This document shows positions 5,223-15,139 of a stretch of DNA of 64,000 nt, piece after piece. Where the stretch lies: positions 62,001-126,000 of the forward strand of contig CANLHK010000003.1 in the NCBI GenBank assembly GCA_947490615.1, in the 5' to 3' direction. The number at the start of each line of letters is the position of its first letter. Within the stretch, counting starts at the first letter, position 1. The translations under genes were made by a program, and so were the position numbers. A model generated the notes under the pieces. That model was not told the DNA's origin. It was given only the letters and a program-made list of their open reading frames with translations, and made no database searches. Origin of the DNA: Planctomycetaceae bacterium (GTDB lineage Bacteria; Planctomycetota; Phycisphaerae; Phycisphaerales; SM1A02).

Positions 5223-6596
5223 ATGTCTGAGACTTCGCAACGGCACCGCATCCTTCCCATTCTTGTGCGCGCTGTCGTGAGCTTGGCGTTCATCGCGTTG
5301 GGTATCGGGATCTACGCATGGCTCTATTGGACTCGTCCGCAACCGCCAGCGAGTGATCCCACAACGACAGGACGATTGCGCCTCTTAGTGACGGAGCCCT
5401 TTCAATTGGAAGTCGGCCGCCACTACCGCGCGTTTGGTCAAGCGCAAGCGCGCGATGCTGCCGATGTGCCCGCGCGCGTCACTGCGCCAGTCGTGACGGT
5501 GCACCCAAACTATCGGGAAGGCGCCGTGGTTGCTGCGGGTGAACCGCTCGTGACGCTCGACGCCAGCGATTTTGAGCGACAACTTGCCATCGCCGACGAG
5601 TCGCTCAAGACGATCGAGGCGCAAGTCAGCATGCTGAACCTTGATCGTGGCTCGCTGACGCGCGCGCTGCAACTCGCCGAAGAAGACGCCAAGATTGCCG
5701 CCGACGATCTCGAACGCGTGCGTCGCGCTGCTGCACAAGATGCCGCCGTGGCGCGCGAAGTCGATCGTGCCCGAGGCGCGGCGATCGCAGCCGAACGAGC
5801 CATCATCGCTGCGCGTGACGCGACGCTGAAACTGCCGCTGCGCGCTGCATCGTTAGAAGCCGAACGCGCGCGCCAACAAGCATCACGCGAACTCGCAAAG
5901 CTCTCCCTCGAGCGTTCGACGATTGTGAGTCCCATCGCAGGCATCGTGCAGTCGGCGGATCTTGAGATTGGCGAGGTCGCGGCGCCAGGCGTGCGCGTGG
6001 CGCGCGTGGTCGATCCGAGTGCGATTGAGATTCCCATTCTCTTGCCCGCGGGCGCGCGCCGCTTTGTGGCCGTGGGCGATCGCGTTGTCTTGCGCGCCGA
6101 TCGCGCCGACGCAGTTGAGGTCGTGGCGCGGATCACCCGCATCGCGCCTGAAGATGATGCGTCGACACGCACGATGACGGTCTACGCCGAGGCCGCGGGA
6201 TCCAACGAGCTTCCGCCTGGCGCGTTTGTCGAGGCCGAGGTCTCTGCGCGCGCGGATCACGCGCGCACCGTCGTTCCTCGTCGCGCCGTCAGCGGTGGCC
6301 GAATCAATGTGGTGCGCGACGGCGCGGTGCATGGGCTCGAAGTCATCGTGGAGTTTTCCTTCACAGGCTCGCCATCGCCGCGCCTCCCTGACACCGAGTG
6401 GTCGGTGCTCTCCGAGCCGCTGCCTGCGGACACCCTCATCGTCCTTGATGGCTCTCGACGATTGCGCGAGGGCGCCCCCGTGACCGCGGTCAAGCCTGGC
6501 GTCGAGGCCGACTCTGAACTCGTGGGCGATCGTCCCGCTGCTTCGACGCCGCCGAGTTCTCCCAGTTCAACGCCGCCTTCAACGCCATCTCCCTAA
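5223..6596 (+). CDS. RND efflux periplasmic adaptor (membrane fusion protein)
   Basis: Links an inner-membrane RND pump to an outer-membrane channel. The 457 residues show an N-terminal membrane anchor (about residues 12-33), a first half-lipoyl segment (PARVTAPVVTVHPNYREG), and a long coiled-coil hairpin of about residues 110-225. The second half-lipoyl follows (LSLERSTIVSPIAGIVQSAD), then beta-barrel and membrane-proximal domains. The last 35 residues are a Ser/Pro/Thr-rich tail. The pump gene follows after 12 bp. No outer-membrane factor is encoded nearby. Substrate unknown. Confidence 0.9.
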   Translation: MSETSQRHRILPILVRAVVSLAFIALGIGIYAWLYWTRPQPPASDPTTTGRLRLLVTEPFQLEVGRHYRAFGQAQARDAADVPARVTAPVVTVHPNYREGAVVAAGEPLVTLDASDFERQLAIADESLKTIEAQVSMLNLDRGSLTRALQLAEEDAKIAADDLERVRRAAAQDAAVAREVDRARGAAIAAERAIIAARDATLKLPLRAASLEAERARQQASRELAKLSLERSTIVSPIAGIVQSADLEIGEVAAPGVRVARVVDPSAIEIPILLPAGARRFVAVGDRVVLRADRADAVEVVARITRIAPEDDASTRTMTVYAEAAGSNELPPGAFVEAEVSARADHARTVVPRRAVSGGRINVVRDGAVHGLEVIVEFSFTGSPSPRLPDTEWSVLSEPLPADTLIVLDGSRRLREGAPVTAVKPGVEADSELVGDRPAASTPPSSPSSTPPSTPSP

Positions 6597-11356: not shown

Positions 11357-12811
11357 ATGCTGAACGACACCGGCACGGACGCCGCGTTCGGGGTTTCCCC
11401 CGACGCCCGCACTTCCTCGACCCGCGACAGCGCGACGGGACGCAAACACTTCGTCCTTGACACCAATGTGCTGTTGCACAACGCGCAGTCGATCTTCAAA
11501 TTTGCCGAGCACGAAGTGGTGATCCCACTCGCGGTGATCGAAGAGCTCGACACCTTCAAGAAGAACAACGACGAAACGGGGCGCAACGCTCGTACCGTCA
11601 CCCGCGCGCTCGATCGGCTGCGCTCGCAAGGCGCGCTGTTTGAAGGCGTGGTGTGGAACGAGCAAGGCGGCTCGATTCGGGTGGCGCGCACCCAACCACG
11701 CGCCGATTTCGCGCTTGATCTCGACAAGGCCGACAATCGGATCCTTGCCGTGGCAGCCGAGCTTCATCGCGTTGGTTCTCGCACGGTGTTCATCTCGAAG
11801 GACATCAACGCCCGCGTCAAGAGTGACGCGCTCGGCATCCCTGCCGAAGACTTCGAGCACGATCACATCTCGACCGACTTCCTTCACGCGGGTTACATCG
11901 TGGCGAAGGTTCCTGGAGAGATCATCGACGAGCTCTACGACGAGCGGCAACTTCGCATGGAGCGGCTCGCGGAGTTCAAGGCGCACACGCCCGATGGAGT
12001 CCACGAAGTCGCGATCGAGTCGATCGCCAACCAGTTCATTCTGCTCGTGGATGAGTTCGACGATCACCACACCGGTCTCGCGCGGATCCTCGCCGATACA
12101 GGTGCGGCGATTCCTGTCACTGGTCCGCGCAAGCCCGTCTACGGGATCATGGGTCGCAATGTGCAGCAGACGATGGCGCTGGAGTTGCTGCTCGACGACG
12201 ATGTCAAGATCGTCACGCTCACGGGTCCTGCGGGAACTGGCAAGACGCTCCTCGCGCTTGCCTCGGGTCTGCACAAGACGCTCAAGGAAGAGCGCTTCGA
12301 CAAGCTGCTCACGGCGCGACCGATCATGCCGCTTGGACGCGACATCGGCTATCTCCCTGGCGACAAGGACGAGAAGCTCTCGATGTGGATGCAGCCGATC
12401 TTCGACAACATCTCGTACCTCCTCTCGACGCGGGGAAGCCATGTCGACGAGCGTCCCGAGAGCCGCACTGCGGAACAGCGTCTCGACCAGCTCATGGCGA
12501 CGGGCCGCGTGGTCATGGAGCCGCTGACCTACATCCGCGGCCGCTCGATCCCGCACCAGTTCATGATCGTGGATGAAGCGCAGAATCTCTCACCGCACGA
12601 GATCAAGACGATTGTGTCGCGTGTCGGTGACGGCACCAAGATCGTGCTCTGTGGCGACATCTTCCAGATCGACAACCCGTATCTCGACGCTCAGTCCAAC
12701 GGTCTCGCCCATTGCATCGAACGCATGAAGGGCCAGCGCATCGCGGGACATGTCTCGCTTTCCAAGACCGAGCGCTCCAACCTCGCGAGCCTTGCCGCAG
12801 AGATCTTGTAG
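11357..12811 (+). CDS. PhoH-family ATPase with N-terminal PIN domain (PhoH2-like)
   Basis: A predicted RNA-processing ATPase of 484 residues. Residues 27-160 form a PIN nuclease domain with the acidic cluster (FVLDTNVLLH, VIEELDTFKK, then LDKADNRIL). Residues 255-470 form the PhoH P-loop domain with Walker A GPAGTGKTLL and Walker B MIVDEAQNLSPHE. PIN-PhoH fusions in other bacteria unwind and cut RNA, often as part of toxin-antitoxin modules; no antitoxin gene is visible upstream. AGGAGG 10 nt before the ATG makes this one of the few genes here with a classical ribosome-binding site. Confidence 0.93.
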   Translation: MLNDTGTDAAFGVSPDARTSSTRDSATGRKHFVLDTNVLLHNAQSIFKFAEHEVVIPLAVIEELDTFKKNNDETGRNARTVTRALDRLRSQGALFEGVVWNEQGGSIRVARTQPRADFALDLDKADNRILAVAAELHRVGSRTVFISKDINARVKSDALGIPAEDFEHDHISTDFLHAGYIVAKVPGEIIDELYDERQLRMERLAEFKAHTPDGVHEVAIESIANQFILLVDEFDDHHTGLARILADTGAAIPVTGPRKPVYGIMGRNVQQTMALELLLDDDVKIVTLTGPAGTGKTLLALASGLHKTLKEERFDKLLTARPIMPLGRDIGYLPGDKDEKLSMWMQPIFDNISYLLSTRGSHVDERPESRTAEQRLDQLMATGRVVMEPLTYIRGRSIPHQFMIVDEAQNLSPHEIKTIVSRVGDGTKIVLCGDIFQIDNPYLDAQSNGLAHCIERMKGQRIAGHVSLSKTERSNLASLAAEIL

Positions 12812-12817
12812 GGTCGA

Positions 12818-13257
12818 GCACACGGGAATCGCGCGACGCGTGTGCAATCCTCGTCTGGCCTTCGTGGCTGGCGGGTTGTGGGTGTTCGGTACCGACGGAG
12901 GTGCCCAGTCCTCAAAGGAGACGAGGCCTGGCGCCGCACCTGCCTCGCACAGGTGCACGGCGGGTGACGCCTCGCCGCGCGGGTTTTCACCAGTGCGCTG
13001 GGGAGCTCGATGGCGAGTGTGGCCGACTCGTAGCCACTGAGCTGCTCACCCTCATCGGCCACTGCTCGCTTCTGTGGGACTGACTGATCCTGCCTGAGGT
13101 GCAACGCCTCATCACACGCGCGATAAGGATCGGTGGCGGAAAGAGAAGCGGCGGCGCGACAGTCATCTTCTCGTGCTCCCTCGACCAACTCAACAACTCG
13201 ATTCTCGTCGCGGACCGAGCGGTCTCGTCGCTTGCCATGCTCGCGTGAACGGGCATG
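12818..13257. other. Protein-free region rich in inverted repeats (possible structured RNA)
   Basis: No open frame here looks like a protein. Six stems can be drawn: 12818-12824/12839-12845 (7 bp); 12849-12856/12919-12926 (8 bp); 12936-12942/12950-12956 (7 bp). Then 13013-13026/13055-13069 (13 pairs, one bulge); 13086-13091/13136-13141 with an inner hairpin 13095-13111; and 13236-13243/13250-13257. It lacks the RNase P, tmRNA and SRP core sequences I know. It could be a phoH 3' UTR, a non-coding RNA, or chance pairing in GC-rich DNA. Strand unknown. Confidence 0.35.
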
Positions 13258-13348
13258 AGATCGCGGACCATCGATTGATCTCTAGACCCGAGCAAACCAA
13301 TCTTGTCAGCCGTGCAGCGGAAAGAGGGTGGATTCACCCATCTTGAGT

Positions 13349-13354
13349 TATAGT
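13349..13354 (+). promoter_or_regulatory. Predicted -10 of the small RNA unit
   Basis: TATAGT, the same hexamer as at the kinase gene. The predicted start is near 13361, directly before the first helix. No convincing -35; a GGGTG/CACCC palindrome (13326-13339) occupies part of that region. Confidence 0.45.
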
Positions 13355-13360
13355 GATCGC

Positions 13361-13512
13361 ACGCTTCCTGCTGTGGAGGGGCGGACAGTCACCATTCAAC
13401 GGCGACCACGCGCCGTACAGCACACGTGGAAACCGCCAGGCAGCGACGCAAGTTGTTGTCGGCGGAAAGGAAGCGCCAGCGCTCTCGGTTTCGAGAGCGC
13501 TGGCGTCTTTTT
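13361..13512 (+). ncRNA. Candidate small structured RNA (about 150 nt)
   Basis: No protein frame. A consistent fold can be drawn by hand. P1 is CGCTTCC (13362-13368) with GGAAGCG (13469-13475). Next to it P2 is TGCTGT (13369-13374) with ACAGCA (13417-13422), enclosing CGGCG/CGCCG (13400-13404/13411-13415). P3 is CCGCC (13433-13437) with GGCGG (13461-13465), enclosing CGAC/GTCG. P1 thus closes a three-way junction, and a perfect intrinsic terminator follows at once. Its size and closed form recall 6S RNA, but I see no decisive 6S feature. Confidence 0.55.
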
Positions 13513-13514
13513 CC
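13474..13514 (+). terminator. Strong Rho-independent terminator
   Basis: A perfect 14-bp stem (13474-13487 with 13492-13505), loop GTTT, then TCTTTTTCC. Only the plus strand has the T-run. It ends the small RNA unit and could also stop read-through from phoH. Confidence 0.9.
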
Positions 13515-13539
13515 ACACTCAGGAAGTGGTCTGAGTGTG
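13514..13539. other. Perfect 9-bp inverted repeat after the terminator
   Basis: CACACTCAG (13514-13522) and CTGAGTGTG (13531-13539) with an 8-nt loop, directly after the terminator's T-run. There is no T-run on either side, so it is not a classical terminator; a protein-binding site or a minus-strand 3' hairpin is possible. Confidence 0.6.
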
Positions 13540-13630
13540 TTGCTTCGAGATTTCCCATGGGGCGAGATCCTTTCCCCACGCACTCGAAGCAAGGTCTGGA
13601 GTGTCGCTGCGTCAGCGTTGGCGACGCGCG

Positions 13631-14389
13631 CTAGTGACAGTTGGGGCAGAGGTCTCCAACTTGTCGCGGTGCCTGCGGATTGCGGCACTCGACGGCGAGT
13701 GTTTGGCAGGAGAACTCAAGCTCGGGAAAGCACTCGCACTTCAAGACATCGGAACAAGGTCCCCAAGTCGGACTCGGCGAGACTGGATACATCCACACGC
13801 AGTTCACGCTGGCGGGCAACTTGGCGCAGGTCGGCATCACGGGCGTGTCCCACATGGGTACCTGCGGTGAGGGGCAGGCCGGAAGTGGACAGGGAGCTGG
13901 CGGCGCCCAACCAGGTGGGCAGGTGAGTGGCACGCAACCTGAGGCTTCCGCAATGTTGTCAATGCAAGTGGAATCGATGCGCTTGTAGGCGCGGCGAATC
14001 GAGCCGCCTTCGCACCAGACCACGACGAAGGTGTACGCGAGACACTCGGTTTCCCCCTCGGCGACCAATTCAGTGCGCGCCTGTTCCTCCGCGACTGCGC
14101 GCGGTGTGCCGTCCGCGACCAGCTCCTCGACGCGCAGTGCAAAGAGATCCGAGTGCTGCCGCGCAAGGGTTGGCGGCACTTGGCCAGGGAGATCTTCCGC
14201 GGCCAAAGTCAGCTTTGCGTTTGGGTTGACAAAGACGGTCACGCACACTACGACTCGTGCAAGGCAGCGGAGCAATGGGCATGCGATTCCCTTCGGACCA
14301 GTCGAGGTCCGAATCGAAAGGTCAAACACTGCGACGGAGGGCCGATCTGAACCTCCGCGCAGGAGCCGCGAGAAACTCGCAGCCACCAC
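13631..14389 (-). CDS. Hypothetical Cys-rich secreted protein
   Basis: No family recognised. The C-terminal half has well over ten cysteines among many prolines (SGCVPLTCPPGWAPPAPCPL, PTCAKLPASVNCVW, KCECFPELEFSCQ, DLCPNCH), as expected for a disulfide-bonded extracytoplasmic domain. A hydrophobic run (LLRCLARVVVCVTVFV) could be a signal-peptide core. The start is uncertain: the open frame begins at a GTG (14389), but a TTG at 14275 would put the hydrophobic run at the N-terminus and give about 214 residues. It converges on the small RNA unit. Confidence 0.45.
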   Translation of the reverse strand: MVAASFSRLLRGGSDRPSVAVFDLSIRTSTGPKGIACPLLRCLARVVVCVTVFVNPNAKLTLAAEDLPGQVPPTLARQHSDLFALRVEELVADGTPRAVAEEQARTELVAEGETECLAYTFVVVWCEGGSIRRAYKRIDSTCIDNIAEASGCVPLTCPPGWAPPAPCPLPACPSPQVPMWDTPVMPTCAKLPASVNCVWMYPVSPSPTWGPCSDVLKCECFPELEFSCQTLAVECRNPQAPRQVGDLCPNCH

Positions 14390-14478: not shown

Positions 14479-14507
14479 GCGCCTACTCGCCGAAAGCGCC
14501 TACTCGC
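14479..14507. repeat. 12-bp direct repeat at the sigma-factor stop
   Basis: GCGCCTACTCGC occurs at 14479-14490 and again at 14496-14507; the second copy contains the TAG stop of the sigma gene. It looks like a small local duplication. Confidence 0.7.
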
Positions 14508-15048
14508 TGAGGGACTGGCCGATGGACTTCGTGATTCGATGCCAGTGCTGACGGCAGGTTCCCGCCTTCGTGCCCAAGTGTGCGGCGATCTCCGACCACG
14601 AGGCTCCGTTGAGTCGAAGCTGGAGCAGATCTCGATCGGCGTCATCGAGTGCGTCGACAACGGCCACGAGCCGCCTGCGCAACTCCTCGTCTTCGATGCG
14701 AACAGCGGGCTGATCGGCGACGGGCGCACGCTCCACCTGACCATCACGAACGACGCGCTCGCGATCCTCCTGGCGTTGCATGCGCCAGAGCGCGCGGTCG
14801 ATGAGCGTGTGCAAGATTGCCCACAATCGCGGGGTTTCACGCACTGCGGCGCCGTCGGGCGGCTGCACGGCTTCGTGATCTTTGAGTGTCAGGGTGCGTC
14901 GCACGACGGTCGCGTAGATGTCGCTTGTCGAGAAGGCCCCGCGCGACGGGGACTTCCGCGATTGGATCCGCGCGCGAAGCGTGGGGGCGATCGCCGCGAG
15001 CAGCGCAGCGAGTTCGTGGGTTTGGTTGGTGCGAGGTTCGTCGGTCAT
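14500..15048 (-). CDS. ECF-like RNA polymerase sigma factor
   Basis: A 182-residue protein of the planctomycete ECF type. The N-terminal part aligns loosely with region 2 (AFSTSDIYATVVRRTLTL, PRLWAILHTLIDRALWRM). The C-terminal region 4 helix-turn-helix is clear (LDDADRDLLQLRLNGASWSE, then IAAHLGTKAGTCRQHWHRI). The ATG at 15048 precedes the conserved part. It is divergent from a Ser/Thr kinase gene with 104 bp between the starts, an arrangement common in Planctomycetota, where kinases are thought to act with ECF sigmas. No anti-sigma factor is evident. Confidence 0.85.
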   Translation of the reverse strand: MTDEPRTNQTHELAALLAAIAPTLRARIQSRKSPSRGAFSTSDIYATVVRRTLTLKDHEAVQPPDGAAVRETPRLWAILHTLIDRALWRMQRQEDRERVVRDGQVERAPVADQPAVRIEDEELRRRLVAVVDALDDADRDLLQLRLNGASWSEIAAHLGTKAGTCRQHWHRITKSIGQSLSE

Positions 15049-15139
15049 CGCGGACAGAAACGGCGAGTAAGGTCGTTGGCGGACTCGTGGCAACGCTCGA
15101 CTGTGCCCGAAACTTGTCGAGCGCGGACGAGAACGGCTT

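Follow-up and report, generated by a model that had tools for sequence, protein, structure and literature searches.

A probable small RNA gene downstream of the PIN-PhoH gene in one genus of freshwater Planctomycetota

In a 64,000-nucleotide stretch of the genome of a Planctomycetaceae bacterium (contig CANLHK010000003.1, positions 62,001 to 126,000; hereafter the window), a short segment between a PIN-PhoH gene and a convergent gene ends in a strong hairpin. Does this segment encode a small RNA (sRNA), and if so, of which kind, or does it only contain the 3' end of its neighbor? The initial annotation had proposed a new stable small RNA with a promoter and a terminator, folded into a three-way junction and possibly derived from 6S RNA. 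Homologues and covariation support the first part of this proposal: the unit of about 150 nt at 13361 to 13512 is very probably a genuine, conserved sRNA gene (Table 1). The proposed -10 hexamer is present, and a terminator scan confirmed a strong intrinsic terminator, i.e., a 14-bp stem followed by a T-run. The lack of coding character likewise holds, as the homologues share no consistent reading frame and contain no open reading frame with a shared frame or shared ends. The predicted fold of the unit is unusually stable: its energy of -86.2 kcal/mol compares with a mean of -60.2 among shuffled sequences (z -5.8), and 0 of 200 shuffles reached it. This stability is partly due to the terminator itself.

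Table 1. Features of the sRNA locus and of the adjacent phoH region (window coordinates).
Feature	Position	Strand	Remarks
PIN-PhoH (PhoH2-type) gene	11357..12811	+	Pfam PIN_4 1.1e-31, PhoH 3.6e-47; upstream of the sRNA
Tandem copy of the phoH 3' end, decayed	13004..13321	+	separates the sRNA, whose promoter it directly precedes, from intact phoH
-10-like box TATAGT	13349..13354	+	from sequence; predicted transcription start near 13361
5' domain (P2), irregular hairpin	13369..13422	+	closed by TGCTGT 13369-13374 / ACAGCA 13417-13422
Conserved linker ACACGTGGAA	13422..13431	+	candidate functional element (seed or protein-binding)
Hairpin P3	13433..13465	+	CCGCC 13433-13437 / GGCGG 13461-13465
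P3 inner helix	13439-13447 / 13452-13460	+	covarying; GCAA loop
Conserved linker AAAGGAA	13466..13472	+	same in 8/8 full-length homologues
Intrinsic terminator	13473..13512	+	stem CGCCAGCGCTCTCG 13474-13487 / 13492-13505, T-run 13508-13512

A DNA search identified seven further genomes of the genus with a clear match (G001, G002, G006, G008, G011, G012, and G013) and one, G003, with a truncated match. The sRNA is kept in about half of the sampled species of this single freshwater genus of Planctomycetota, and its length ranges from about 150 nt in the window to about 210 nt in relatives. It is dispensable, because the loci of G003 and G004 are truncated or decayed versions, and G005 and G015, in which phoH is intact, carry only a plain terminator at its position. 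The G003 homologue (L013, about 1480-1530) is without P3 and the 5' arm of the terminator, and what remains of it could fold into a short new terminator that uses the T-run. A covariance model built from six homologues, from which the window and G001 were left out, recovered both of these sequences (each with about 90 bits, E about 3e-20) and gave no convincing match beyond the genus among 151 genomes of the family. Weak model matches outside the genus (e.g., in G146 and G136) turned out, where read, to be plain terminators or unrelated sequence in which the core is missing. When one genome of each species in GTDB 220 was scanned for the core pattern, seven records were retrieved. Where their titles are informative, they mostly denote metagenome bins of Planctomycetota; two titles, naming Limnohabitans and Kuenenia, look like those of mislabelled bins. 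The phoH tree, whose support is mostly weak, fits the presence of the sRNA at the base of the genus and later losses.

The alignment of relatives also provided the check on stem conservation that had been proposed for the three helices: compensatory changes occur in P3 and in the terminator, with 99.5% of cells paired over both elements, and 0 of 500 shuffles reached the score for covariation over the whole structure, with slid controls far lower. In P3, where 98.7% of cells are paired, four pairs have changed at both positions. The terminator is paired in 100% of cells and nearly invariant in sequence, one pair being changed from G-C to A-U in G001. The linkers ACACGUGGAA and AAAGGAA are nearly invariant as well, whereas the P3 loop and the 5' domain drift; the ACACGTGGA part of the first linker was found in all eight full-length homologues. 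The 5' domain occurs in different forms in two groups of species. Judged by eye rather than by a formal count, most homologues have, immediately 5' of the ACACGUGGAA linker, a predicted helix whose sequence has changed (GCTGT/ACAGC, GCGCTCG/CGAGCGC, CCGGCGA/TCGCACGG), and G001, G002, G003, G006, and G012 have, by the same kind of inspection, an additional 5' hairpin that is altered in both arms (CTCCGG/CCGGAG, GTCCCGA/TCGGGAC).

The closing helix P1, which the initial annotation had drawn between CGCTTCC (13362-13368) and GGAAGCG (13469-13475), fared differently in the window and in its relatives. In the window, the two segments can form 8 bp, a result reached in 1 of 300 shuffles. In the relatives, the longest pairing spans 4-6 bp and is usually at chance level, and the 6-bp pairing of G002 and G012 falls inside the 5' hairpin, so that it is no counterpart of P1. 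P1 is thus confined to the window sequence, and the same therefore applies to the three-way junction. What the homologues conserve is a series of hairpins with linkers between them and not a closed junction.

Every homologue lies downstream of a PIN-PhoH gene and, where read, opposite a convergent gene. In most relatives the sRNA terminator is shared with phoH, and the phoH stop codon is followed by the -10 box at a distance of about 8-20 nt. The window differs in that the intact gene and the sRNA are separated by a degenerate copy of the phoH 3' end, which keeps the old adjacency visible. A blastn comparison gave no match for this duplicate; a local alignment with phoH bases 12489-12801 did detect it (score 117, best of 200 shuffles 59). 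The downstream convergent gene differs by species and encodes a YccA-like or a Cys-rich protein. At 13631-14389 and 14500-15093 of the window (both minus strand), the gene for a Cys-rich protein that has no Pfam match adjoins an ECF-type sigma factor gene; the Cys-rich gene stands where most relatives have the YccA-like one.

As to the promoter, -10-like boxes occur at the same place in all nine homologous loci (TATAGT, TATGGT, TATGTT, TATATT, TACAGT, and TACATT) and jointly beat 2000 of 2000 shuffles, a significance that is overstated because the loci are related. A promoter scan of the window unit yielded no consensus -35/-10 pair and no recognisable -35 element, and only the -10 box is therefore credible. 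While position, helices and terminator are conserved features of the locus, its transcription is what we infer from the sequence: the sRNA gene would be transcribed from its own promoter, with a start near 13361.

In a rival reading, no separate regulatory RNA exists, and the segment is only the 3' UTR of phoH together with a terminator that serves phoH and the convergent gene in both directions. The unit always lies between these two genes, could be merely the phoH 3' UTR in most relatives, and has nothing but a terminator in its position in G005 and G015. On the minus strand, moreover, AAAGGAA reads as a T-rich tail (CTTCCTTTCC), which would act in terminating the convergent gene. However, termination has no need of an invariant ACACGUGGAA, of P3 or of conserved stem sequence, -10-like boxes accompany every locus, and in the window the unit has been kept although it is now about 540 nt away from the intact gene, with a decayed phoH copy in between. 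We therefore regard the UTR reading as rather unlikely. That the segment is a cis-acting leader or riboswitch, whose terminator would regulate a downstream gene, is suggested by the position of the terminator directly after the conserved core, but is most improbable given that the next gene is convergent, both in the window and in those relatives that were inspected, and varies by species.

Among known RNA families, covariance-model searches against Rfam, including the 6S and SRP models, gave no match at gathering or permissive thresholds. The unit shares with 6S RNA (RF00013) an intergenic location, a comparable length and a stable fold, but no 6S match was obtained in 13250-13600 up to E 10, and its row of hairpins has neither the closing stem nor the central bubble of 6S RNA. 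A separate 6S-like match is located elsewhere in the genome (G000:C1:431338-431526, minus strand; L034 1501-1689) and carries a 6S-like ACCCACCU segment, as do L033 and L031. The suggestion of a diverged 6S RNA at the phoH locus hence retains next to no probability. The 6S-like matches recur in several members of the genus with 29-31 bits, i.e., below the gathering threshold of 46.4, and this recurrent ACCCACCU-bearing RNA is probably the diverged 6S RNA of the genus. Bacterial SRP RNA (RF00169) did not match the unit either; the SRP RNA of the genome lies at C1:163797-163893. A CsrA-sequestering RNA of the CsrB/RsmY/RsmZ type would likewise combine consecutive hairpins, a terminator and GGA motifs in or close to the linkers, and three conserved GGA motifs (GUGGA, GCGGA, and AAGGA) are found at or near linkers here, in a genus in which nearly all members, including the window genome, encode two CsrA paralogues. 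Yet GGA motifs are too few for such a sponge: their excess is marginal and limited to one homologue (G011: 7, p 0.026; window: 5, p 0.18), ANGGA occurs just once or twice without enrichment, and the GGA sites are predicted to be largely paired in several homologues, which leaves a CsrA sponge distinctly unlikely. The CsrA paralogues of the window genome are encoded at G000:C1:78028-78183 and G000:C1:304154-304318; most genomes of the order have two, one near 85 bits and a divergent one near 52 bits.

The best overall explanation is an independently transcribed sRNA proximal to the 3' end of phoH, which we consider likely. The RNA represents a small-RNA family that is absent from Rfam and otherwise ordinary in kind. 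It resembles 3'-UTR-proximal sRNAs with their own promoter, which likewise begin where a coding gene ends and are made up of hairpins and an intrinsic terminator; in most relatives the terminator is shared with the neighbor gene, as in these sRNAs. It differs from them in that no Hfq was found here, in being unrelated in sequence to any known family, and in that its start site is a predicted one. Hfq was not detected in 13 genomes of the genus, including the window genome, whereas control genomes gave matches. Together with the lack of a clear excess of CsrA-type motifs, this favors a trans-acting, Hfq-independent sRNA. In the proposed mechanism, a promoter at or just past the end of the PIN-PhoH gene would drive synthesis of an RNA of about 150 nt, which would end at the strong terminator. 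The ACACGUGGAA linker could then be exposed, with no involvement of Hfq, to a partner that is either an mRNA or a protein, while P3 and the terminator might serve as stabilising modules. That the linker mediates regulation in trans is a tentative proposal, and its accessibility in predicted folds differs among homologues.

The linker complement, GTTCCACGTG, occurs 0 to 21 times per genome; there are zero copies in the window genome, and the one copy in G008 is the sRNA itself, so that this search pointed to no target. The GTTCCACGTG double palindromes that were examined read TGTTCCACGTGGAACA and were rejected as targets, and the ACACGUGGAA linker itself fits only one half of this palindrome. 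We take the TGTTCCACGTGGAACA palindromes to be parS-like (ParB) sites, which probably mark the origin region. Such sites were seen in L134 and L144 (G002:C10:5288-5301 and 5366-5379; G001:C12:68237-68250), with similar overlaps in G006 and G012. The conserved neighborhood also raises the idea that the RNA partners or regulates the PIN-PhoH ribonuclease/helicase gene, e.g., by binding the enzyme or by tuning its mRNA, forming a PhoH protein-RNA regulatory pair; this we consider very unlikely. No planctomycete sRNA at phoH was found in the literature.

Few small RNAs of Planctomycetota are known; for the PVC group as a whole, a review arrived at just 8 distinct sRNAs (PMC9029176). An sRNA that shows covariation and is specific to its lineage, in a genus without detected Hfq, provides a concrete object for studying how such bacteria use sRNAs, and its constant PIN-PhoH neighbor makes a functional link testable.
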